The translations under genes were made by a program, and so were the position numbers. Below, in pieces: positions 280 through 11,083 of a stretch of DNA of 11,083 nucleotides. The notes beneath the pieces were generated by a model. That model was not told the origin of the DNA, did no database searches, and saw only the letters and a list, made by a program, of their open reading frames with translations. Source of the DNA: Deltaproteobacteria bacterium RIFOXYA12_FULL_61_11 (GTDB lineage: Bacteria > Bdellovibrionota_F > JAHFAK01 > YA12-FULL-61-11); assembly GCA_001799195.1 (NCBI GenBank), contig MGSU01000120.1:1-11083 (forward strand). Reading direction: 5' to 3'. Each line of letters starts with the position of its first letter. The stretch's first letter is position 1.

Positions 280-1209
280 TCAGCGCAAGCCGTGGAGGAC
301 GTGCAGGACCACCGTACCGACCTGTTCCAAGCTGGTGGCGCTGACCTTGTCGAGCGTGTCCTCGAGAGTATGCCACGCGGGATAGTCGAAATCGATGAGG
401 TCGATGCATTTCACACCCGCCCGGTTGAGCGGCAGGTGATCGTCCATGATGCTGTGCCGCACGGTAGCATGAAAGGTGGTGAAGCCCAGCTCGCGGGCCG
501 TGTTCCAGACCAATTCCACGAGTTCGGGTGCGTAGTGGACGGACCAGCGTTCTTGGTAGATCTGGAGGTCTGCGTCGCCGATCATGTCCAGGAGGATACC
601 GAAGCGGTAGTCCGAGGCCTGCAATTGACCCGCGTAGACGTTGCTCCCGAGGAACATGTCTTTGGCACTCGGGCCATGGTCCTCGCCATCGAAGAACACC
701 AATTCGATGGGTATTGGAGGAGGCGCTGCCGCAAAGGTGCGGGCGAGTTCGAGCAGGACCGCGACCCCCGAGGCCCCGTCGTTGGCACCGTCGATGGGTT
801 GGTTCCTGTGGGCCGGGTCCGGATCCTGGTCTGCCCAGGGTCGGCTGTCGAAATGGGCTGCCAACAACACCCTCGGTGCTCGGGGTGGCTCGGCTTTCGG
901 CCAGAAGGCGACCAGGTTGGTGAAGGTTAGATCCTCGTTGTGGACCTCCAGGGTGAAGGGGCGCCGTTCTACACTCAAACCGCAGCCGAGCAGGTGATCC
1001 TCGTAGTAATCGAGCGCGGCAGCGTGGCCGGGGCGGCCGGTGAAGCGAGGCCCGAGTTCGACTTGCGCGGCGACATGCCGCAGCGCTTGTTGCCCGTCGA
1101 AGACCGGGAGTTTCACGCTGCTCGGCGTCGAACGTGGGCAACCGGTCAGGGCGAACAGAGCGGTCGTCACGGGTACCAAGTTACGGTAGAGCGCGGAGGT
1201 ATTCGGCAT
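280..1209 (-). CDS. M28-family zinc peptidase / glutaminyl-peptide cyclotransferase-like lipoprotein
   Basis: A 309-residue predicted lipoprotein. The N-terminus has a short hydrophobic stretch ending in the lipobox LTGC (residues 21-24), so the mature protein should be anchored by Cys24 outside the inner membrane. The rest fits the M28 fold shared by aminopeptidases and glutaminyl cyclases. AAHFDSR (117-123) carries His119 and Asp121; DGANDGASG (140-148) carries Asp144; FFDGEDHG (172-179) carries Glu176 and Asp177; LLDMIGDAD (206-214) follows; and WHTLEDTLDKVS (279-290) carries His280. By family comparison Asp144, Asp177 and His280 are the likely zinc ligands and Glu176 the catalytic acid. 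The closing DYPAWHT..DT.DK pattern favours the glutaminyl-cyclase-like branch, but cyclase and aminopeptidase activity cannot be told apart by eye. The ATG at 1209 is preceded by AAGGTGAG at short spacing. The gene start overlaps the end of the upstream lipoprotein gene by 29 bp, suggesting one transcript. Confidence 0.88.
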   Translation of the reverse strand: MPNTSALYRNLVPVTTALFALTGCPRSTPSSVKLPVFDGQQALRHVAAQVELGPRFTGRPGHAAALDYYEDHLLGCGLSVERRPFTLEVHNEDLTFTNLVAFWPKAEPPRAPRVLLAAHFDSRPWADQDPDPAHRNQPIDGANDGASGVAVLLELARTFAAAPPPIPIELVFFDGEDHGPSAKDMFLGSNVYAGQLQASDYRFGILLDMIGDADLQIYQERWSVHYAPELVELVWNTARELGFTTFHATVRHSIMDDHLPLNRAGVKCIDLIDFDYPAWHTLEDTLDKVSATSLEQVGTVVLHVLHGLR

Positions 1210-2299
1210 AACTCACCTTTTCAATGGCAGCAGCGATGCTCTCGAGCAAACCCGAGGGTTCACCCGTGAGGAGGGACCGAGCCTGGAGCAGGAGCAGGTC
1301 TTCTTCCTCGAAGCCGAGGAACCAGGAGGCAGCAGCTGTTGCACGCAAGCGTTCGAAGGATTGGATATCGATAGTATGAAGGAGTTCGAGACATGTCGTG
1401 CCCGATGGTTCAGGGGGTGAAGTCGGAGCCAGGAGGGTCAGGAAGCCGGGATGCTCGAGGTCGAGGACCTGCAGAAGCCGCGCCCCCGGAGCGCACCTCG
1501 GGGCAATGGAACGCAGGTGTGCGGCAAGCACGAGATGGGTTGGGCATTCGGGTGCAGGCAAGGCAGGGGCAACAAACTGTACCAAGGGCGTTCCCTCGTA
1601 TGTCCACGGATGAGTGAGGGGGGCGGCCTCCTCGGCCGTAGCTGAGAGATGGCGCTCGACCTGTGGTTCGGTGCGACACTCGAAGCTGGGCAGGGCTGCA
1701 TCGGCTCCCTCAGGACCGCGCAGCACCAGGAAGACGGTACGGGGATCGAGTTCGTTGACGTACCAACGCTGGAGAGCTCGGGCGAGCGTGGGAGGCCTGG
1801 GTTCACTCAGAGCGTGCGGGGCAGCCCCCTCTCCGAAAGTGTCGGTCCGGTAACGGTCGAAGACGCGTCTGCCGAGATCAGAGAGTACCTCGATGAGGTC
1901 CGAGGTCGGCACGATCAGGCGCACTGTCGTGGTGAAGGGACCCTGCATGGTTTCCAGGATAGGGGCTGGAGTTCCTTCGCGGGCGGAGAGTTGGGAGCGG
2001 AGATATTCGAGGAACAACGAGGTGCAAGGGATCCCTTCGAATTCGAGACGATGGGCTTTCCCTCGGGTATAGACGAAATAGAGGATGCTGAACGGGTGTT
2101 GGTGTGGTGTGAAGAACACGGAGAACGTCCGACGATATTCCACGAGCGGGGAGAGTTGCAAGGGTGCGTGATCGAGAGGAGGTGTTGTGGCCAACCGTTC
2201 GAGCCTCGCCGCCGGGGAGGGAACACAGGCCACAGCGGCGAACAACAATCCCAGGAGCGCGAGGACACTGGGCGGGAAGGTAGGTGGCAGATACTTCAT
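1181..2299 (-). CDS. Lipoprotein resembling an M16 (insulinase-type) peptidase with a lost active site
   Basis: The protein is 372 residues. The frame stays open upstream to 2521, but I chose ATG 2299 because it is followed at once by a signal peptide with a lipobox-like end (FAAVAC, Cys25), and because the longer version would run into the divergent gene. Weak SD: GAGAGG, about 10 bases upstream. Several stretches line up in order with a single-domain M16B protein: YFVYTRGK (74-81) with the strand before the M16 helix; LFLEY (95-99) at the place of the zinc motif HxxEH; EGTPAP (108-113) with the segment after it; WYVNELDPRTVFLVLRG (179-195) with the linker and strand opening the second half; and ARSLLTGEPSGLLESI (340-355) and AEYLRAL near the end. 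Both motif histidines are replaced (Leu95, Tyr99) while the glutamate (Glu98) stays, so hydrolysis is unlikely. The assignment is by pattern only; a novel lipoprotein is the alternative. It is first in an operon with the M28-like gene. Confidence 0.6.
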   Translation of the reverse strand: MKYLPPTFPPSVLALLGLLFAAVACVPSPAARLERLATTPPLDHAPLQLSPLVEYRRTFSVFFTPHQHPFSILYFVYTRGKAHRLEFEGIPCTSLFLEYLRSQLSAREGTPAPILETMQGPFTTTVRLIVPTSDLIEVLSDLGRRVFDRYRTDTFGEGAAPHALSEPRPPTLARALQRWYVNELDPRTVFLVLRGPEGADAALPSFECRTEPQVERHLSATAEEAAPLTHPWTYEGTPLVQFVAPALPAPECPTHLVLAAHLRSIAPRCAPGARLLQVLDLEHPGFLTLLAPTSPPEPSGTTCLELLHTIDIQSFERLRATAAASWFLGFEEEDLLLLQARSLLTGEPSGLLESIAAAIEKVSYAEYLRALP

Positions 2300-2303
2300 G
2301 GTT

Positions 2304-2335
2304 AGTATCTGCCTCTCATTCTTTTCGCTTGTCAA
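2304..2335 (-). promoter_or_regulatory. Candidate promoter for the lipoprotein pair
   Basis: Read on the minus strand, a perfect TTGACA (2335-2330) is followed after 20 bp by GATACT (2309-2304). The -35 is ideal, but the spacer is longer than the usual 16-18 bp, the -10 is only partial, and a start so near the ATG would leave almost no leader. A tentative call. Confidence 0.22.
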
Positions 2336-2356
2336 CTGGGAGTGATGTTTGATAAA
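2329..2356 (+). promoter_or_regulatory. Candidate promoter for the five-gene operon
   Basis: TTGTCA (2329-2334), 16 bp, then GATAAA (2351-2356) inside the AT-richest patch of the divergent region. This is a fair sigma-70-type match (5/6 and 4/6). It would give a leader of roughly 70 bases before ATG 2433. Its -35 overlaps the minus-strand TTGACA, since TTGTCAA and TTGACAA are the same DNA read on opposite strands, so the two promoters would compete for polymerase. Confidence 0.33.
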
Positions 2357-2394
2357 AGATTGATTCCTTTCAGGCCTTGTGCGGAGGAACGGCG

Positions 2395-2404
2395 CTGCCG
2401 GCAG
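2395..2404. promoter_or_regulatory. Short perfect palindrome in the operon leader
   Basis: CTGCCGGCAG is a perfect 10-bp palindrome 28 bp before the start codon of the receiver/cyclase gene and downstream of the candidate promoter. It could be a half-buried operator or a small RNA stem near the ribosome site. No second copy was seen in the intergenic region, and such palindromes arise by chance in GC-rich DNA. Confidence 0.15.
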
Positions 2405-2432
2405 GTGACATGGAGCAGGTGGCGAAGTGTAG

Positions 2433-4937
2433 ATGAGCGGTCCCTTCAAGGTCTTGATAGTCGACGATTCCAAGTCGGTGTGCGAGTTGCTGCACAAGCA
2501 ATTCCCCCCCGAACGCTTCACCGTGGTCGGGCACGCTCATGATGCCAACTCGGCTCTTGCGGCCATCAAGAAGCAACCCATCGATGTCGCCGTGCTCGAT
2601 ATCGTCCTGCCCCAGGCCTCAGGGATTACGGTTTTCAAAGAGATCGTTCGCATCTCGCCGGACACGCAGGTGATTCTGATAACCGACAAAGCGACCCCGG
2701 ATCTCATCCGTAAGTTGATGAGTCAACAAGCCCGCTATTTCCTGGTCAAACCGATCAAGCGGGAGGTCCTCCTCCTCACCATCCAACGTGCAATGGCCTT
2801 GCGCTCTATCGAGATCATCGCTCCACAGGTGCCGGAGCTGAATTTCTCTCCCCTCTGCGAAGACACCGCGAAGATGCCGCAGAATTATATCTCCCTCATG
2901 GACCGGAGCGAACTGATCACCAGGGCCTTTCAGCTCTTCGATAGTTACGAGGAAGGGGTCATCGAACAACTCCGGAAATTCGAGGGCGAGCGTGACACCA
3001 TCGAGGACAAAGCGATCAAGATCAGATCGCGACTCGAAGCCTCCGCTGGGCAACTCGCCAATCTGCGGTTCATCATTGAGAACCACGAGAAGAGTATCGA
3101 GGAACTCTCCAGAGAACGCAGGGCGAGGACCGAAACGGTCAAGCTCTTGATGGTGGAGAAAACCGCTCAAGAGCGGGAAATAGCCGAGCTGCTCAATCGT
3201 TATAAGACCCAGGAAGAGAACGTCGGCTATGCCAAGCTCAACCTGGACAAGCTCAAGATCCGTTTGATTGAGAAGATCAAGTACCGTGACCGAGTGCTAC
3301 CGCAGTTGGCGGGTCTGCAGCAAGAAGTGGAAAAGGTAGAGACAGAAGTCCTTTCGACCGGAAAGATCGTGCACGCGCTCGGGGACAAGATCAAGCTGGC
3401 TCGAGAACTCTTGGAGAAGATAGCCAACCAGCGGCATCGCCTCGATCACGAAACCCAACAGGGCAAGGAACGCGGCGTAGAGTTGCAGGTGAAACTCCGT
3501 GAGGCGGCCAAACAAGAAGTAAAACTCAGCGATGCTGCGGAGAAGAGTCGCAGGGGGTTGGAAGCCGCGGAAGGCAGAGTGAAGGATTTTATCATTAAAT
3601 TGGCCCCACAGCTCGACCAACAGCAAGCCTTCGACAACTTCCATACCTTGCACAACCTCTGTGAATTGCCACAGGGCATGCTTCCCAAACGCAATACCTT
3701 GCTACGAGAACTCATCGAAGCCAAGGAACGGCACGCTACCATTTCCGAACAATTGCGCCGGTTCATGGCTTCCTATACGCATTTGCGGGGGGAGAACGAG
3801 GCCTTGACCAACTCCTGCAACAGGATTGTCCAAAGTCGGCCGGTGTTGGACAGTAAGTTCAATGAACTACAGGGGCTCCTGAAAAACTTAGGGGAGAAGG
3901 CGAGCGCAGCGGAGAAGCACTATCGGGCTCTTTGTCAGCGAAGGGATGAACGCAAGGTCGATTACATGAAGCTCAAACAGAGCCAGACACACCTATTCGA
4001 AGAGCTCGACCGGTTGCGCGACGAGGTCGAGTTGGCCGAGAGTTCTCTCCGCACCTTCTTGATAAAGAAGGAAAGTCTCGAGAAAGACCTGACTCAAAAA
4101 GATAATTTATTCAACCAAGTCGAACGGCGTATCGTTGAGGCGACCAATGCCAACAGCCGGATCACCGAGAAAGTATCGGTGCAGCGCAGGGAGATAGAAA
4201 AAGCTCAGGCCGAGATCGCCTCCAAGGAGCAGGACCGCGGTCTACAACAGCAGGCCTTGGTCGAGATGGAGCGCATTCTCCAGCAACTCGAATTGAAACG
4301 GATCCAAGCTCTCTCGGCCGTCAACCGCTTTGCCGAGGCCAGGGGCTACTTCGGCCAGATCCGGGGACGTATCGAGCAACTCCTCCAGGAACGCTTCTGC
4401 CGCAAGGTCGCGATCATGGCCACCGACATCAAAGGCTCAACCTCCTACTTCGAGCGTTTCGGTGATATAGCCGGACGGAGAATGATAAAAACTCACAATG
4501 AGTTGCTTCATCCCTTGGTGCAGAAGTGTGGTCACATCTTCAAGACCAAAGGGGATTCCCTGTTCGCCTATTTCGAGCAGTCAAGAGACGCCCTGGATAT
4601 TGCCCTTGCCATCCAACGCACCCTCAGGAGTTACAATGCCCAGGCGCATCTCGATCCCGACCAGCGTATCCGGGTGCGCATCTATCTCCACTACGGGACC
4701 GCGATTCTCGAACAACGTCCCGAGGGCCTGGAGGTCTATGGAGACGTGGTCTACACCTCGATGAAGATCGAGGAAAAGGGTGGGGACCGGGCGGAAGTCA
4801 TTGTCGCCTCGCGGGATTTCTATGATCAATTCCTCGAGGATGAGGACTTGCTCTTCCGGGATTTCGGCAAGTTGGCGATCAGCAGCGAGGGGGAGGCGTT
4901 ACCCCTGTACGAACTGCTCTGGGAGGAAATGCCGTGA
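2433..4937 (+). CDS. Receiver / long coiled-coil / class III nucleotide cyclase-like signalling protein
   Basis: An 834-residue protein with no signal peptide or membrane segment, so cytosolic. Residues 5-125 form a response-regulator receiver with all key residues: acidic pair Asp11-Asp12, phospho-acceptor Asp56, Thr84 and Lys106. Residues about 165-650 are a nearly unbroken Glu/Lys/Arg/Leu/Gln-rich coiled coil, broken around 388-420 by a short proline- and aromatic-containing stretch. Residues 655-800 are a class III adenylate/guanylate cyclase domain: metal aspartates Asp665 (ATDIKGST) and Asp708 (KGDSLFA) and the ATP-type lysine Lys704 (FKTKGD) are present. In the usual dtVNxASR segment, however, the transition-state Asn is Tyr774 and the Arg is Lys778, and the second base-recognition position is Glu767 in place of Asp or Thr, so activity is doubtful. 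The start is ATG 2433 with AGGTGG ten bases upstream. The stop overlaps the ExbB start (GTGA). It heads the five-gene operon and may be a phosphorylation-controlled regulator of the motor subunits. Confidence 0.9.
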   Translation: MSGPFKVLIVDDSKSVCELLHKQFPPERFTVVGHAHDANSALAAIKKQPIDVAVLDIVLPQASGITVFKEIVRISPDTQVILITDKATPDLIRKLMSQQARYFLVKPIKREVLLLTIQRAMALRSIEIIAPQVPELNFSPLCEDTAKMPQNYISLMDRSELITRAFQLFDSYEEGVIEQLRKFEGERDTIEDKAIKIRSRLEASAGQLANLRFIIENHEKSIEELSRERRARTETVKLLMVEKTAQEREIAELLNRYKTQEENVGYAKLNLDKLKIRLIEKIKYRDRVLPQLAGLQQEVEKVETEVLSTGKIVHALGDKIKLARELLEKIANQRHRLDHETQQGKERGVELQVKLREAAKQEVKLSDAAEKSRRGLEAAEGRVKDFIIKLAPQLDQQQAFDNFHTLHNLCELPQGMLPKRNTLLRELIEAKERHATISEQLRRFMASYTHLRGENEALTNSCNRIVQSRPVLDSKFNELQGLLKNLGEKASAAEKHYRALCQRRDERKVDYMKLKQSQTHLFEELDRLRDEVELAESSLRTFLIKKESLEKDLTQKDNLFNQVERRIVEATNANSRITEKVSVQRREIEKAQAEIASKEQDRGLQQQALVEMERILQQLELKRIQALSAVNRFAEARGYFGQIRGRIEQLLQERFCRKVAIMATDIKGSTSYFERFGDIAGRRMIKTHNELLHPLVQKCGHIFKTKGDSLFAYFEQSRDALDIALAIQRTLRSYNAQAHLDPDQRIRVRIYLHYGTAILEQRPEGLEVYGDVVYTSMKIEEKGGDRAEVIVASRDFYDQFLEDEDLLFRDFGKLAISSEGEALPLYELLWEEMP

Positions 4938-5557
4938 TCGAAGGAGCCAACCTCTTCCAGTTCCTCGAGAAAGGCGGGCCGATCATGTATCCGCTGGGCC
5001 TCTGTTCGGTGCTGCTTCTCGGGATCGTGTTCGAACGCGCATGGTCCTTGCGGCTCCGGCGTATCCTGCCCACGCGCTTCCTCATAGAAGTTGATGATCT
5101 GGTGCGCCGTGGAAAATTGCCCGAGGCCTCGACCCTGTGCAAAACCAATGACTCTTCCATCGCCAGGATCTTCCTCGCCGGACTGCAGCATCCTACGCGG
5201 CCACGGGAATTGTGTCGGGAAGCTCTCGAGGCTGCCGGTCGCCAGGAGAGCGCGAAACTGCAGACCAATCTCGGGATACTGGCCGCGATCGCCTCGGTAT
5301 CACCTTTACTCGGTCTCCTCGGTACAGTCATGGGCTTGCTCCAGGTATTTCGCACTATCGAGGCCCATGGAGCCGGGAATACCAGTATTTTTGCGGGGGG
5401 CATCTACCAGGCTTTGATCACCACTGTGGTGGGCTTGATCATCGCTATTCCCGCTTTCCTGGTTACCAAGTACTTCGAGAGTAAAGTCGAGAGCTTGGTC
5501 AGGGAAATGGAGCGCGCGGGTTTGGAATTGCTCGACCTCTTGCGCGGAGAGTCCTGA
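4934..5557 (+). CDS. ExbB/TolQ/MotA-family proton-channel subunit
   Basis: A 207-residue inner-membrane protein starting at GTG 4934, overlapping the cyclase-like gene by 4 bases, with GGAGG at 4922-4926 as ribosome site. Three membrane helices fit the ExbB/TolQ plan: about 17-37, 112-138 and 160-181, with a large cytoplasmic loop between the first two and a charged cytoplasmic tail. The family signature SPLLGLLGTVMGLLQVF (123-139) and ALITTVVGLIIAIPA (160-174) are both clear; Thr131 and Thr163/164 match the polar residues that line the proton path in ExbB and TolQ. The family forms pentamers around an ExbD/TolR dimer and uses the proton gradient to drive TonB, TolA or gliding motors. None of those usual partners is encoded nearby, so which one it drives is unknown. 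Sequence alone does not separate ExbB from TolQ, so I give no symbol. Confidence 0.93.
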   Translation: MIEGANLFQFLEKGGPIMYPLGLCSVLLLGIVFERAWSLRLRRILPTRFLIEVDDLVRRGKLPEASTLCKTNDSSIARIFLAGLQHPTRPRELCREALEAAGRQESAKLQTNLGILAAIASVSPLLGLLGTVMGLLQVFRTIEAHGAGNTSIFAGGIYQALITTVVGLIIAIPAFLVTKYFESKVESLVREMERAGLELLDLLRGES

Positions 5558-5964
5558 TGCACTTCTCCGTGCTGAAGAAACAGAATGTCGAATTGGGAAT
5601 CACGCCTCTCATCGATGTGATTTTTACCTTGCTGGTGTTCCTGCTCATCTCCACCACCTTCGAACAACAGGGAGGGCTCGAGGTCGAATTGCCCGGGTCC
5701 AGCTTCAGCGAGACGGCGAGTCCGGTCGAACGCAGTACGGTGACGATCGATCGGAACGGGCATGTGTATCTCAATCGTCAACGGGTCGAACTCGATGGGC
5801 TCGTACTCGCTTTGCGTACTCTGAGCCGTACCTCTGCGGTAGTCCTCGAGGCCGATCGTGAGGTCAAGCACGGCCGCATCGTTGCGGTCATGGATGCAGT
5901 GCGCCGCAGTGGGATCAAGGCGGTTTCCATTGCCACGAAGACCGGGGGAATCCCGAAGCGCTAA
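5557..5964 (+). CDS. ExbD/TolR-family biopolymer transport protein
   Basis: A 135-residue protein with a short cytoplasmic N-terminus, one membrane helix (about 16-36) and a periplasmic domain. The helix carries the essential aspartate of the family, Asp20 (TPLIDVIFTLLVF), which takes up and releases protons inside the ExbB/TolQ ring. The periplasmic part has the normal ExbD end: VVLEADREVKHGRIVAVMD (95-113), then the GIKAVSIAT strand (119-127). Its ATG shares one base with the stop of the ExbB-like gene (TGATG), with GGAGAG at 5546-5551, so the two are translationally coupled and should be made in fixed ratio. There is no OmpA-like peptidoglycan-binding domain, which rules out a MotB or ZorB type protein. 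Confidence 0.93.
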   Translation: MHFSVLKKQNVELGITPLIDVIFTLLVFLLISTTFEQQGGLEVELPGSSFSETASPVERSTVTIDRNGHVYLNRQRVELDGLVLALRTLSRTSAVVLEADREVKHGRIVAVMDAVRRSGIKAVSIATKTGGIPKR

Positions 5965-5981
5965 GACCTGGAGGAAAGACG

Positions 5982-7052
5982 ATGTACGCGATCATCATGG
6001 CTGGAGGGTATGGCACCAGGTTCTGGCCCAAGAGCAGGCGAAGTCTGCCCAAGCAATTTCTCGCGATCGGCACCCGCAGGACCTTGCTCCAGGAAACCTA
6101 TGACAGGTTGGCTCGCTTGCTTCCCTCCGACCACATTGTGGTGCTCACCAACGCGCTGCATGTACCCCTGGTGCGAGCCCAATTGCCGGAGTTGCCGGCC
6201 GCGAATTTGCTGGCCGAGCCCATGGTCCGCGACACCGCGCCGTGTATCCGCTTGGCCGCTGCCCTGGTCGCGGGGAGGGATTCGCGAGAGACCATGCTCA
6301 TCGTTCCCTCGGATCACGTTATCAGGGACCAGGAGGGTTTCGCGCGGGTGGTAACCGCCCTCGAAGCAGAATTGGTAAGAGAGGACGGTGCGGTGACCAT
6401 CGGTATCCCTCCGGACAGAGCTGAAACTGCCTATGGATACCTTGAGGTGGGTGAATTACTGGCGCATCATGCCGGGGTAGCTGTCCATCGTACCCTTCGC
6501 TTCACCGAGAAACCGGATTTGGCGACCGCCGAGCGATTCCTCTCTGGAGGCACCCATTGGTGGAACAGCGGGATGTTTGCTTGGCGGGTCGATACCTTGC
6601 TCGAAGCGTATGCTACCTGCTTGCCTGAAGTCGCAGCCTTAGCCGAGGGGCTGCAGGGGGAACTCGACGGTCCGAAGCGCGAGAGCGTGATCGAAGCCTT
6701 CTATCGCGAGGTGACCCCTATTTCGGTGGATTTCGGCCTCATGGAGCGCTATCCCCATCAACGCACGATCAAGGCCTGCTTCGACTGGAACGATGTCGGT
6801 GGTTGGGCAGCGGTCCCGGGGGAGGTGACCGGCAACAACCGGCTGATTTCCGGACACCTCTGTGACCTCGACGCTTCGGGTAACATCGTGGATATGGCCG
6901 AGCACCGCAAGGTTGTAGCTCTGCTGGGGGTTCACGACCTCGTCGTCGTGGATACCGCGGATGCTCTTCTGATCTGCCCGATCGGACGCAGCCAAGAGCT
7001 CAAAGCGTTACTCGGGAAATTGCGAGCCCAAGGAAGAGAGGACGTGCTATGA
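5982..7052 (+). CDS. manC: Mannose-1-phosphate guanylyltransferase (GDP-mannose pyrophosphorylase)
   Basis: A 356-residue cytosolic enzyme that joins mannose-1-phosphate and GTP to give GDP-mannose and pyrophosphate, the donor for mannose, fucose or rhamnose units in surface glycans. The nucleotidyltransferase signature AGGYGTRFWP..SR...PKQ covers residues 7-25. The further family motifs AEPMVRDTAPC (78-88), PSDH (109-112), FTEKPD (174-179), WNSGMF (194-199), SVDFGLMER (248-256) and DWNDVGGW (268-275) occur in the right order. The length matches the short form that has only the guanylyltransferase domain; the mannose-6-phosphate isomerase domain of the long bifunctional form is absent. Ribosome site GGAGG (5970-5974) lies seven bases before the ATG. 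The gene sits 17 bp after the ExbD-like gene and overlaps the next gene by 4 bases (ATGA). No glycosyltransferase or other sugar-nucleotide gene is near it, so its product may feed a pathway encoded elsewhere. Confidence 0.95.
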   Translation: MYAIIMAGGYGTRFWPKSRRSLPKQFLAIGTRRTLLQETYDRLARLLPSDHIVVLTNALHVPLVRAQLPELPAANLLAEPMVRDTAPCIRLAAALVAGRDSRETMLIVPSDHVIRDQEGFARVVTALEAELVREDGAVTIGIPPDRAETAYGYLEVGELLAHHAGVAVHRTLRFTEKPDLATAERFLSGGTHWWNSGMFAWRVDTLLEAYATCLPEVAALAEGLQGELDGPKRESVIEAFYREVTPISVDFGLMERYPHQRTIKACFDWNDVGGWAAVPGEVTGNNRLISGHLCDLDASGNIVDMAEHRKVVALLGVHDLVVVDTADALLICPIGRSQELKALLGKLRAQGREDVL

Positions 7053-7705
7053 GAACTCTGCTGTGGATCCTGATTTGCGCGTTGCTGGTCCTACCCGCGA
7101 GTCTGGCGAAGGAAAACTTCCTGACCTCGGACGGGCTGTTGACCCTCGGTGGAGCGGGGGCCGACTGGGGTGGGGAAGATCGAGTACTCGGCCTCCTCGA
7201 TCTCAACCTCGAGCTGCGTTCGAAGAACCGCGATGTGGTGCACTTCTATATTGGGGCTGAAAATCTTTTCGGTTATGGAGCGATGCGGGACGACCTTGAC
7301 CAGCAGCACGGTGCACTCGATCTCTTCCCCTATCTCGGCATGGATCTCGCCCTCCCACGCCAGAGTCCGATCTCGATCGTCCTCAAGCCAAAGCTCGGCT
7401 ATGGTTATTCCCTGGTACCCGGCTATCTCCAGCACGATACCGAGGAGAACTTCCATACCTATCGTTGGGGTCTAGCCGGGGCCCTGGCCTTGAACCACCT
7501 CACCGTCGCTCGTTCTGTACTGCTCGAGGCCGAGTACTCGCGTTATGCTCAGCACTATGCCTACCATTTTCTTACGACCAGGCTGTTCTATGTTCCCTAC
7601 GATACCTATGAAGCCTCCATGGGAGCTGGGGTTTGCCTGGTATTCCATCATATACGCAACAAGAAATTCTCCCTCACGGGTGGGGGGATAGGCTTGACCT
7701 TCTGA
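7049..7705 (+). CDS. Small predicted outer-membrane beta-barrel protein of unknown function
   Basis: A 218-residue protein of no family I recognise. A standard signal peptide is clear: Arg2, a hydrophobic core at 4-17 and a cleavage site at ASLA (17-20), then the mature protein. The mature part is rich in alternating polar and hydrophobic strands with many Gly, Tyr and Leu, for example GLLTLGGAGADWGG (29-42), DLNLELRSK, HFYIGAENLFGYG and KPKLGYGYSLVPGY. It ends in GGGIGLTF with a C-terminal Phe, the usual last-strand signal for outer-membrane assembly. The size suits a barrel of about eight strands. The start overlaps the manC stop (ATGA), with GAGAGG seven bases upstream, so it is the last gene of the operon. 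It could be a porin-like or structural partner of the proton-channel pair, or act with surface glycan; nothing in the sequence decides this. Confidence 0.75.
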   Translation: MRTLLWILICALLVLPASLAKENFLTSDGLLTLGGAGADWGGEDRVLGLLDLNLELRSKNRDVVHFYIGAENLFGYGAMRDDLDQQHGALDLFPYLGMDLALPRQSPISIVLKPKLGYGYSLVPGYLQHDTEENFHTYRWGLAGALALNHLTVARSVLLEAEYSRYAQHYAYHFLTTRLFYVPYDTYEASMGAGVCLVFHHIRNKKFSLTGGGIGLTF

Positions 7706-7714
7706 AGTCCGGGG

Positions 7715-9133
7715 TCACTCCTCTCGTTCTTCGGGGTGCCCTCGCCCGAGCGAGCGCGGGTAATCGACCAGACCATGTTTCTGCAATCGGTAACGGAACG
7801 ATCTGAAGGTGGTATTCAGGAGTTTGGCGGCTTCGCCGATGACTCCGTTGGTCCTGGTCAGGGCCTTGATGAGGTAGTCGCGTTCCAACGTCGAGAGGAC
7901 CTCTTCGAGATCGAGGCCCTGTTCCGGCAATTCGCTGCCCGGACAAGGTCTACCCCCCTGACCTCCCTTCCTCCCGAGGGTTCCGAGCGCCTCGGCGGTG
8001 AGGACGGTGCTGGTCTCTATCGCGAGACCTCGTTCGATAATGTTGCGCAATTCTCTGATATTTCCCGGATAATCGTGGTTGGCGAGGAGTTCGAGAGCCT
8101 CGGGACTGAGCTGTTGCACGGTGGGGTTGATGGCAGGAGCCAGACGCTGCAAGAAGTGCGCGGCCAGCTGGGGGATGTCCTCTCGGCGTTCGCGTAGCGG
8201 GGGCATATGGAGATGGAAGACGTTGAGACGATAGTACAGGTCTTCGCGAAAAGAGCCCTGGGCTACGGCTTGATCAAGGTCGCGATTGGTGGCGGTGATC
8301 ACGCGGGCTTCGATCTTGGTATCCTCGTTGGAACCGAGCCGGCGTACCGTTCTCTCCTGAAGCACCCGGAGCAGCTTGACCTGGGTCATGGGCGGCAGAT
8401 CCCCGATCTCATCGAGGAAGATCGTCCCACCGCCGGTATACTCGAACAAGCCCTTCTTATGAGCGGTAGCTCCGGTAAAGGCTCCCTTCACGTGACCGAA
8501 TAGTTCGCTCTCGATCAGGGTTTCTGGGATCGCGGCGCAGTTCAGGGCGACGAAAGGCCGCTCGTGGAAGCGGGAGGTGTAGTGCAGGGTCCGGGCGATC
8601 AATTCCTTCCCGGTGCCGCTTTCGCCGGTGATCAGCACCGTGATGTCCTTATCCTTGATGCGTTCTATGAGCACGAGGAGTTTCTGCAGTTTCTGACTCT
8701 CGCCCACGATGACGTCTTCCGTCATCCGCTTTTCCAGGGTCGTGCGCAGATAGACATTCTCGCGAGCCAAGAGCAATCGTTCGGAAGCCTTGGTCACCAC
8801 ATGCTTGATGTTGTCTACTTGAAAGGGTTTGAGGATGTAGTCGTACGCTCCGCGTTTCATCGCTTCGATCGCGTTCTCCATAGAGCCGAAGGCAGTGATC
8901 AGGATAACGATGGTATTCGGGTCGACCTCCTTGGCCCGTTGCAGCACCTCCAACCCACCGACACCGGGCATCTTCAGGTCTGAGATGACCAGGTCGAAAT
9001 GGGTGGCGCGCAGCATCTCCAACGCGTCGTTGCTGCTCGTCGTGGTAGTCACGAGGTAGCCTTCCTTGCGAAGGAAGATCTCGAAGAATTCGCAGATGCT
9101 TACCTCGTCATCGACGACTAGGACCTTGATCAT
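7715..9133 (-). CDS. pilR: Sigma-54-dependent response regulator, PilR type
   Basis: A 472-residue NtrC-family activator. Residues 1-120 are a receiver with Asp8, Asp9, phospho-acceptor Asp52, Thr80 and Lys102. Residues about 140-370 are the AAA+ sigma-54 contact domain: Walker A GESGTGKE (170-177), the sigma-54 loop GAFTGA (217-222), Walker B IFLDEIGD (238-245) and the arginine-finger region FREDLYYRL (295-303). A Gly-rich linker (about 385-400) leads to a Fis-type helix-turn-helix at about 430-453 (GEAAKLLNTTFRSFRYRL). When phosphorylated by its kinase it should hydrolyse ATP to open sigma-54 promoters. The ATG overlaps the kinase stop (ATGA), with GGAG eight bases upstream. I use the name pilR because the gene follows pilC and the PilS-like kinase; domain content alone would only say NtrC family. 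It converges on the barrel gene with 9 bp between the stops. Confidence 0.9.
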   Translation of the reverse strand: MIKVLVVDDEVSICEFFEIFLRKEGYLVTTTTSSNDALEMLRATHFDLVISDLKMPGVGGLEVLQRAKEVDPNTIVILITAFGSMENAIEAMKRGAYDYILKPFQVDNIKHVVTKASERLLLARENVYLRTTLEKRMTEDVIVGESQKLQKLLVLIERIKDKDITVLITGESGTGKELIARTLHYTSRFHERPFVALNCAAIPETLIESELFGHVKGAFTGATAHKKGLFEYTGGGTIFLDEIGDLPPMTQVKLLRVLQERTVRRLGSNEDTKIEARVITATNRDLDQAVAQGSFREDLYYRLNVFHLHMPPLRERREDIPQLAAHFLQRLAPAINPTVQQLSPEALELLANHDYPGNIRELRNIIERGLAIETSTVLTAEALGTLGRKGGQGGRPCPGSELPEQGLDLEEVLSTLERDYLIKALTRTNGVIGEAAKLLNTTFRSFRYRLQKHGLVDYPRSLGRGHPEEREE

Positions 9134-10794
9134 TGCATAGGCTCCGTATCCAGGGGCAGCACGACGTGGAAGCGTGTGCCGCGGCTTTCTTTGTTCTCGA
9201 CGTGGATCTTGCCTCCATGACCTTCGATGATCTGGTAGACGATGGACAAACCCAAGCCTGTGCCGCGTTGTTTGGTGGTGAAGAAGGGATCGAAGATGCG
9301 TTTGACCACATCCGCGGGTATGCCAGGACCTTCGTCCTCGACCATCAGATCGGCGAGAGTGCCTCGTTGCCGGGTGCTTACCAGGACTGTTCCCTCTTCA
9401 CCCATGGCTTCTACAGCGTTGCGAAGGAGATTGAGGAGTACTTGGTGGAGCAGGCGTTCATCGATCATGACGGGGAGCGGTGTGCAGAAATCGGTCGTGA
9501 TGGTCGGTCCCGGGACTTCACCGCGCCGACCGAGGAACAGCTCGACCGTACTTGCCGCCAACTCGGAAAGGTCTTTCCTCTCGGGCCGCGGGTTCTGTGG
9601 GCGGGCAAAGATCAGGAAGTCGCTGATGAGGCTGTCGAGTCGGCCGATCTCCCGCAGGACGATGTTCATCAGTCGTTGATCTTCTGGCGCAAGGGTCAGG
9701 TCCCTGGACAGGAGTTGGATGGATCCGCTGATCGAGGCCAGAGGGTTACGGATCTCGTGGGCGATACCTGCGGCGAGTTGACCGAGGGCAGCGAGCTTGT
9801 CCGAGGTCCGCAACCTTTCTTCCATCTCGCAGTACTCGGTGTTGTCGCGAACGAGGACCAACCGCTGTTCTTCGTGGTGCTCATCCCCGGGAAGATGTTG
9901 TCCGAAGACGACCAAGTGCCGGCGTTTTTTATGCCGATCGAGGTGGATGAACTCCCAACGTACCGACGGTTTTGAGGATTGGAGGCCACGCAGGACCTCG
10001 AGGTGTTGCGGACCCAGGAAGGGGAGTGCGCCCTCCAGAGGCCCGCGCTCCGGGAGGTCGTCGATGTGGTCGAGGATGCGTCCCAACCGCGAGTTGCGGA
10101 ACAGGGTGGAGAGGTTGGCATTGGTGAGGACCAAGCCATCCCCGAGGTTGCGTACGATGGTCGAGTTTATTCGATTGAGTTGTTCGAGGTCGCTCTGCCG
10201 GGCGCGCAATTCGATACTGGTGCGGTGCAGGGCTTCGGTGATGTAGCCGGCTACATAGGCAATAATGAGGAAGAGCGACAGATTGGTGATGACCTTGATG
10301 GCTACGTCGATCGCATCCAGGGTCTCCGGCCTGACCGGTCTGTCGAGGGGCGGGAGTACCCCGTGGTACTGGAGCAGAGAGAGACCACCATAGAGCAGAC
10401 AGCAGGCGTAGGCAGTGGCAACACCTCCTCCGCGCAGGAGCAGGATGTTGGCGCTCAAGATGTTGAGCAGGTACATGAAGGTGAAGATGCTATCCACGCC
10501 TCCGGTGAGATAGATCACGCAGGTGGTGAAGAGAACGTCCCAGGCGAGTTGGAGTGCGGCGAAGACCATGGGATTGCGCAAGGTTGAGAAGCGCAGGATG
10601 ACCCAGAAGATGAAAGAAGCGACATACGAACTGGAGATGAGGACATAGATGAACATGAGGGTGGAAGATAGGAAGGCGTTCTGATCGTAGATGCGCAAAA
10701 TGATCGTGGTGCTGAACAGGATGGTGACGAACAGCACTCGCGAGAGAAGGTGCCAGTAGAGCTTGTCTGAGAGTTCGAAGGTCGGGGTCTTCAC
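9130..10794 (-). CDS. pilS: Membrane sensor histidine kinase, PilS type
   Basis: A 554-residue kinase that should phosphorylate the adjacent PilR-like regulator. The first 190 residues hold about six hydrophobic membrane segments (near 16-34, 44-67, 76-97, 101-121, 126-143 and 164-186) with almost no periplasmic domain, as in PilS, where pilin is sensed inside the membrane. A short coiled linker and a PAS-like region (about 205-320) follow. The HisKA helix has GIAHEIRNPLASISGSIQ (343-360) with phospho-acceptor His346. The ATPase domain shows the N box LLNLLRNAVEA (453-463), G1 VEDEGPGI (485-492), F box FDPFFTTK (501-508) and G2 GTGLGLSI (511-518). The start is GTG 10794, 8 bp after the pilC stop; GGAGG lies about 12 bases upstream, somewhat far. 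The order pilC-pilS-pilR supports the PilS name over other NtrB-like kinases. Confidence 0.9.
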   Translation of the reverse strand: MKTPTFELSDKLYWHLLSRVLFVTILFSTTIILRIYDQNAFLSSTLMFIYVLISSSYVASFIFWVILRFSTLRNPMVFAALQLAWDVLFTTCVIYLTGGVDSIFTFMYLLNILSANILLLRGGGVATAYACCLLYGGLSLLQYHGVLPPLDRPVRPETLDAIDVAIKVITNLSLFLIIAYVAGYITEALHRTSIELRARQSDLEQLNRINSTIVRNLGDGLVLTNANLSTLFRNSRLGRILDHIDDLPERGPLEGALPFLGPQHLEVLRGLQSSKPSVRWEFIHLDRHKKRRHLVVFGQHLPGDEHHEEQRLVLVRDNTEYCEMEERLRTSDKLAALGQLAAGIAHEIRNPLASISGSIQLLSRDLTLAPEDQRLMNIVLREIGRLDSLISDFLIFARPQNPRPERKDLSELAASTVELFLGRRGEVPGPTITTDFCTPLPVMIDERLLHQVLLNLLRNAVEAMGEEGTVLVSTRQRGTLADLMVEDEGPGIPADVVKRIFDPFFTTKQRGTGLGLSIVYQIIEGHGGKIHVENKESRGTRFHVVLPLDTEPMQ

Positions 10795-10802
10795 GCCAAG
10801 GC

Positions 10803-11083
10803 TCAGCCTCCACCGCCCTGCAGGCTGCCGGCGAGTTCGAAGATCGGGAGGTACATGGCCAACACCAAACCGCCGATGATGCCGCCCAAGAAAACCATCA
10901 TCAAGGGTTCAATGATCTTGGTCAGACCGGACATTGCAGCGTCGACCTCTTCCTCGTAGAAGTCAGCGATCTTGTTCATCATCTGGTCGAGCGCTCCGGT
11001 GCTCTCGCCGACCCGGATCATCTGAGGGACCATATCCGGGAAGATGGAACGCTCTTCAATCGGCTCGGCCATGGTCTTGCCTT
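10803..11083 (-). CDS. pilC: Type IV pilus inner-membrane platform protein PilC, C-terminal part
   Basis: Ninety-two C-terminal residues are visible; the frame runs off the right edge, and the in-frame ATG at 11072 is internal, since GKT precedes it in the same frame. The stretch MIRVGESTGALDQMMNKIAD is the hallmark of the second F domain of the type II secretion / type IV pilus platform family (GspF/PilC). It is followed by ADFYEEEVD and the last membrane helix IIEPLMMVFLGGIIGGLVLA with its typical MYLPIFELAG end. PilC sits in the inner membrane, where it works with the PilB and PilT ATPases. A GspF assignment is possible from this fragment alone, but the pilS/pilR neighbours point to the pilus. 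Confidence 0.92.
   Translation of the reverse strand, partial: GKTMAEPIEERSIFPDMVPQMIRVGESTGALDQMMNKIADFYEEEVDAAMSGLTKIIEPLMMVFLGGIIGGLVLAMYLPIFELAGSLQGGGG

Follow-up and report, generated by a model that had tools for sequence, protein, structure and literature searches.

A receiver/coiled-coil/cyclase-homology gene in a five-gene run with an ExbBD-type pair in a Bdellovibrionota_F genome

When the genes of an ExbB/ExbD-type proton motor overlap the gene of a cytosolic receiver protein, do the products build one machine, or are they made together without working together? This question is raised by the window analyzed here, an 11,083-nt stretch that represents the entire contig C120 of a draft genome (4.64 Mb, 342 contigs, 87% complete) of Deltaproteobacteria bacterium RIFOXYA12_FULL_61_11. 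The phylum is represented in our sample by two genomes, namely the source genome and G001, and the class by the same two.

Gene layout of the locus

The first three reading frames in Table 1 are open and are linked by the overlaps described in the first-pass annotation: the GTG start of exbB overlaps the stop of the 834-aa gene (GTGA, 4 nt), and exbB and exbD share a single nucleotide (TGATG). That annotation ended the coupled genes at exbD and missed their continuation. The co-directional run on the + strand in fact comprises five genes, since a gap of 17 nt leads from exbD to manC, and an ATGA overlap (4 nt) joins manC to the gene for a 218-aa protein. The genes upstream of 2433 are divergent from this run. 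The five genes are likely co-expressed, and we infer that they are co-transcribed. The overlap alone, however, does not demonstrate a complex, because the PilR-like and PilS-like genes of the same window also share 4 nt and such overlaps were observed in 20 of the 175 same-strand ORF pairs of the loci compared. As had been noted earlier, no TonB-, TolA- or Pal-like gene is present; the Pfam annotation of the window extends this absence to the whole contig.

Table 1. Genes of the co-directional run in the window
Gene product	Position	Strand	Features
Receiver / coiled coil / class III cyclase-homology protein	2433..4937	+	834 aa; receiver 1–125, coiled coil about 160–650, cyclase-homology domain 655–834
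ExbB/TolQ-type proton-channel subunit	4934..5557	+	207 aa; three predicted TM helices; GTG start
ExbD/TolR-type subunit	5557..5964	+	135 aa; one TM helix; Asp20 at proton-binding position
Mannose-1-phosphate guanylyltransferase (ManC)	5982..7052	+	Probable fourth operon gene
218-aa protein, N-terminal signal-like segment	7049..7705	+	Probable small outer-membrane barrel, judged from sequence

The manC gene is the only copy found in the genome; its counterpart in G001 is flanked by phosphomannomutase-like and MiaA-like genes, with no ExbBD there. For the 218-aa protein, a search of 386 genomes revealed no homologue and the PDB and PHROG comparisons no match; no family was found for it, and its single-sequence model was too poor for use. 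Elsewhere in the window, positions 280–2299 encode an M28 peptidase and a 372-aa predicted lipoprotein that matched no family, both divergent from the operon, and positions 7715–11081 of the - strand carry the PilR-like and PilS-like genes together with a PilC-like gene that is cut by the contig end.

The 834-aa protein and its distribution

The 834-aa protein has the three parts that were first reported, a receiver (residues 1–125; Pfam Response_reg, 7.5e-23 at residues 7–117), a coiled coil (about 160–650) and a cyclase-homology domain (CHD; 655–834, with Guanylate_cyc at 1.1e-5 over residues 657–792). The phosphorylation residues of the receiver (D11, D12, D56, T84 and K106) are all intact. 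The coiled coil, of some 480 residues, follows a heptad pattern, as evidenced by the hydrophobicity power at period 3.5 over residues 166–640 (z=9.9 against composition-preserving shuffles). A low-confidence structural model (mean pLDDT 59) was helical over most of residues 158–654, with a break near 391–415, and its Foldseek matches mainly restated the cyclase domain.

The first-pass annotation had drawn a parallel to FrzS and AglZ of Myxococcus, in which an N-terminal receiver is likewise followed by a long coiled coil. In FrzS both the phospho-accepting and the Mg-binding Asp are missing, and in AglZ residues that phosphorylation requires are absent (PMC1974792). The 834-aa protein, in contrast, retains the full site and carries an additional C-terminal CHD; membership in the FrzS/AglZ group was hence rejected on the published descriptions of these two proteins. 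Short REC-cyclase proteins (e.g. at loci L076, L115 and L126) also join a receiver to a class III cyclase domain, with about 12–25 residues between the two domains, whereas the 834-aa protein has ~520 residues with the heptad repeat and has lost the catalytic Asn and Arg.

A protein with the same order of receiver, coiled coil and CHD is encoded by the genome a second time. This 609-aa paralogue on contig C23 is 28% identical to the 834-aa protein over the alignment, is unlinked to the 834-aa gene and is not adjoined by any ExbBD gene. Its receiver has Thr at the second acidic position, and its coiled coil is shorter (about 280 residues versus about 480).

Outside the source genome, no protein combining a receiver, a long coiled coil and a CHD was found in the survey with the 834-aa protein, in the A1 survey, in the CHD survey of 386 genomes or among 80 named loci. 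The A1 survey, which scored two candidates per genome in the 386 genomes, was swamped by receiver domains, and a survey with the CHD only was therefore used; this matched 17 genomes besides the source genome, and the closest matches inspected lacked a receiver. A contig scan with the 834-aa protein alone found no relative, the alignment scan yielded the 80 loci, none with all three parts together, and no such protein lay beside ExbB in any of the 40 nearest ExbB relatives. The order REC-coiled-coil-CHD/ExbB/ExbD was likewise seen only in the source genome among those sampled, which carries little weight as a negative inside the phylum, where the sample comprises two genomes. A literature search returned nothing on this gene combination. 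The arrangement is real and unusual, and in this sample it is confined to one genome.

The ExbBD pair: one machine or shared expression?

Both motor subunits were confirmed by Pfam (MotA_ExbB, 9.7e-34; ExbD, 1.5e-28), and the pair is complete, as had been proposed. The channel residues are kept: Asp20 of ExbD aligns with the Asp of the TPFID motif in solved ExbD, and Thr131 and Thr164 of ExbB are each present in 40/40 relatives. With its three TM segments, channel Thr residues and TM Asp, the pair has the features of an ExbB/TolQ-ExbD/TolR proton motor. Compared with its relatives, the ExbB contains no specific insertion save three N-terminal residues, and hence no obvious docking module. In a tree of the 40 nearest relatives (40 genomes) and the other ExbB-type proteins of the genome, the operon ExbB joined a widespread set, the fork uniting this set being weakly supported (85/22), and the TolQ, TonB-linked ExbB and AglR-like proteins of the genome fell in other, strongly supported groups.

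The closest ExbB sequences (38–50% identity) belong to TPR-ExbB-ExbD-TonB clusters of many bacterial families, which resemble the present pair in subunit sizes and channel residues. They differ in their neighbors: the TPR and TonB genes are absent from this operon, and the REC-coiled-coil-CHD gene lies upstream and manC downstream instead. The lack of a TonB gene had been taken as exceptional, but TonB directly follows ExbD in only 17 of the 40 relatives' loci and was not detected in the remainder, so that an ExbBD pair without TonB is ordinary. TPR genes occur in 17/40 loci, one or the other of TPR and TonB in 21/40 and neither in 19/40, with three of the 40 loci ending within 1.5 kb downstream. 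The neighbors of these pairs are varied, and MutS, DivIC and Lon are among them. In two different families (L186 and L188) ExbBD is followed by a DivIC-family septum protein, and in two families (L203 and L218) an ExbB-type gene lies just upstream of a MutS-like gene.

Assignment to a known motor system was considered in each case against the other loci of the genome. A Ton system with a local TonB was rejected, as the contig has no TonB and the TonB genes lie elsewhere. Two ExbBD-TonB-receptor loci are on C342 and C121, and a TonB-like gene at C60 (L235, positions 4963–5940) has no ExbBD gene beside it in the stretch read. Tol-Pal, which is a TolQ-TolR-TolA-TolB-Pal cluster, was rejected, since the Tol cluster is on C29 and the operon ExbB scored 90.3 bits to tolQ against a cut-off of 221. 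A MotAB flagellar stator, in which MotA has four TM segments and MotB an OmpA-like domain, was also rejected, given the three TM segments of ExbB, an ExbD with no OmpA domain and the MotAB-like pairs on C309 and C186. The AglRQS/Glt gliding motor of Myxococcus, which the first-pass annotation had suggested as a parallel, belongs to the same superfamily but is composed of one TolQ-type and two TolR-type subunits (PMC3169522). The operon has one ExbD, and its ExbB lies outside the AglR-like group. The AglRQS-like motor of this genome is a different locus, on C324 (L038, positions 5500–9584), where one ExbB, two ExbD and an 806-aa FHA protein stand in a row that resembles AglRQS plus GltG, the protein with which the gliding motor works. 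A second set of one ExbB and two ExbD is present on C38.

The first-pass annotation had interpreted the three genes as a dedicated proton-driven machine with its own regulator. In such a machine, the coiled-coil protein would dock on the ExbB pentamer from the cytoplasmic side, and phosphorylation of the receiver would gate or localize the proton motor. The tight gene overlap, the lack of TonB nearby and the intact phosphorylation site are in keeping with this idea, and the long coiled coil could serve as a scaffold. We nevertheless regard it as quite unlikely, considering that the gene order occurs in no other sampled genome, the C23 paralogue has no ExbBD, the operon ExbB has no special cytoplasmic insertion and the Agl-like motor is another locus. 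The earlier interpretation is therefore only partly supported and for the most part fails, as do its Myxococcus parallels at the features tested. It had itself named two outcomes that would speak against it, an order confined to this strain, or relatives that keep ExbBD with TonB and the coiled-coil protein elsewhere. The results came close to both, with the order in a single genome, TonB in 17/40 close relatives and the coiled-coil protein beside none.

Could the genes then be chance neighbors, brought together by a rearrangement that put an orphan ExbBD pair downstream of an unrelated regulator without linking the two functionally? The absence of the arrangement from G001 and every other sampled genome would agree with this, as would the many unrelated genes that adjoin TonB-less ExbBD pairs. 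Five co-directional genes with intact frames, two 4-nt overlaps and one 1-nt overlap speak against it, their expression probably being shared, and we judge this account improbable.

The explanation that we favor, with middling confidence, treats the five genes as an envelope operon: an orphan ExbBD proton motor and a soluble response-regulator protein are co-expressed from it, a shared machine being no more than possible. It is in agreement with the intact channel residues, the position of ExbB in a widespread set, and a paralogue and a G001 manC that both stand apart from ExbBD; what speaks against it is that subunits of one complex could also be encoded with such a 4-nt overlap between the regulator stop and exbB. 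In this co-expressed operon the motor, presumably ExbB5-ExbD2, would take up protons via Asp20 of ExbD and might drive a TonB-like protein encoded elsewhere, for which the C60 gene is a candidate. The 834-aa protein would dimerize through its long coiled coil and be switched by phosphorylation of Asp56. Its CHD may bind nucleotide or serve in docking, or it may combine with the C23 paralogue to contribute one half of a composite cyclase site, and any effect on the motor is conjectural. Should the pairing prove functional, a phosphorylation-switched cytosolic protein would act on an ExbBD motor; we know of none in Ton or Tol systems.

Complementary residue losses in two cyclase-homology domains

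The best PDB cyclase match of the CHD, both by sequence and by Foldseek, was Ma1120. With the catalytic positions (metal, purine and transition-state) named as is customary for class III cyclases, the CHD of the 834-aa protein retains both metal Asp residues (D665 and D708) and K704, and has Glu for Asp at the second purine position (E767), Tyr for the transition-state Asn (Y774) and Lys for the Arg (K778). This Asn is present in 71/71 and the Arg in 69/71 other CHDs; the set was partly collected with a pattern containing the first Asp, which biases that column and leaves the Asn and Arg columns unbiased. An active homodimeric class III cyclase has the two metal Asp, the Asn and the Arg in one chain, and the 834-aa protein does not. 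Judged by these residues, its CHD is catalytically degenerate.

The C23 paralogue shows a complementary pattern, with Glu438 in place of the first metal Asp and with K477, D481, D538, N545 and R549 kept. Both Asp residues, the Asn and the Arg are present in all five of the remaining single cyclase domains detected in the genome, and an AAA protein with two cyclase domains on C111 (L020, positions 481–3351) has its catalytic residues divided between them. In mammalian adenylyl cyclase, one site is functional and one is dead, each monomer lacking residues that the other provides (PMC2576301). From the complementary losses, the five intact domains, the C111 split and the mammalian example, a class III cyclase split between the 834-aa and C23 proteins is a reasonable inference.

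Carried further, this would explain the locus as follows: the 834-aa protein contributes the two metal Asp and the C23 protein the Lys, Asp, Asn and Arg, so that of the two sites one is active and the other dead; the two receivers set the cyclic-nucleotide output; and ExbBD is only co-expressed. We consider this full account unlikely, as the two genes are unlinked, coiled coils of such different lengths disfavor a full-length parallel heterodimer, the D-to-E change in C23 may leave activity, and both domains may simply be decaying. Far more speculative still would be a split cyclase of which one half is co-made with, and controls, the orphan ExbBD, tying two-component and cyclic-nucleotide signaling to proton-driven envelope work. 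More accessible to testing is that two paralogous receiver-cyclase proteins have lost catalytic residues in a complementary manner, which may represent an in trans counterpart, in a bacterium, of mammalian C1/C2. The nearest CHDs elsewhere are part of longer proteins, in which they lie close to the N-terminus, and their sites are complete.
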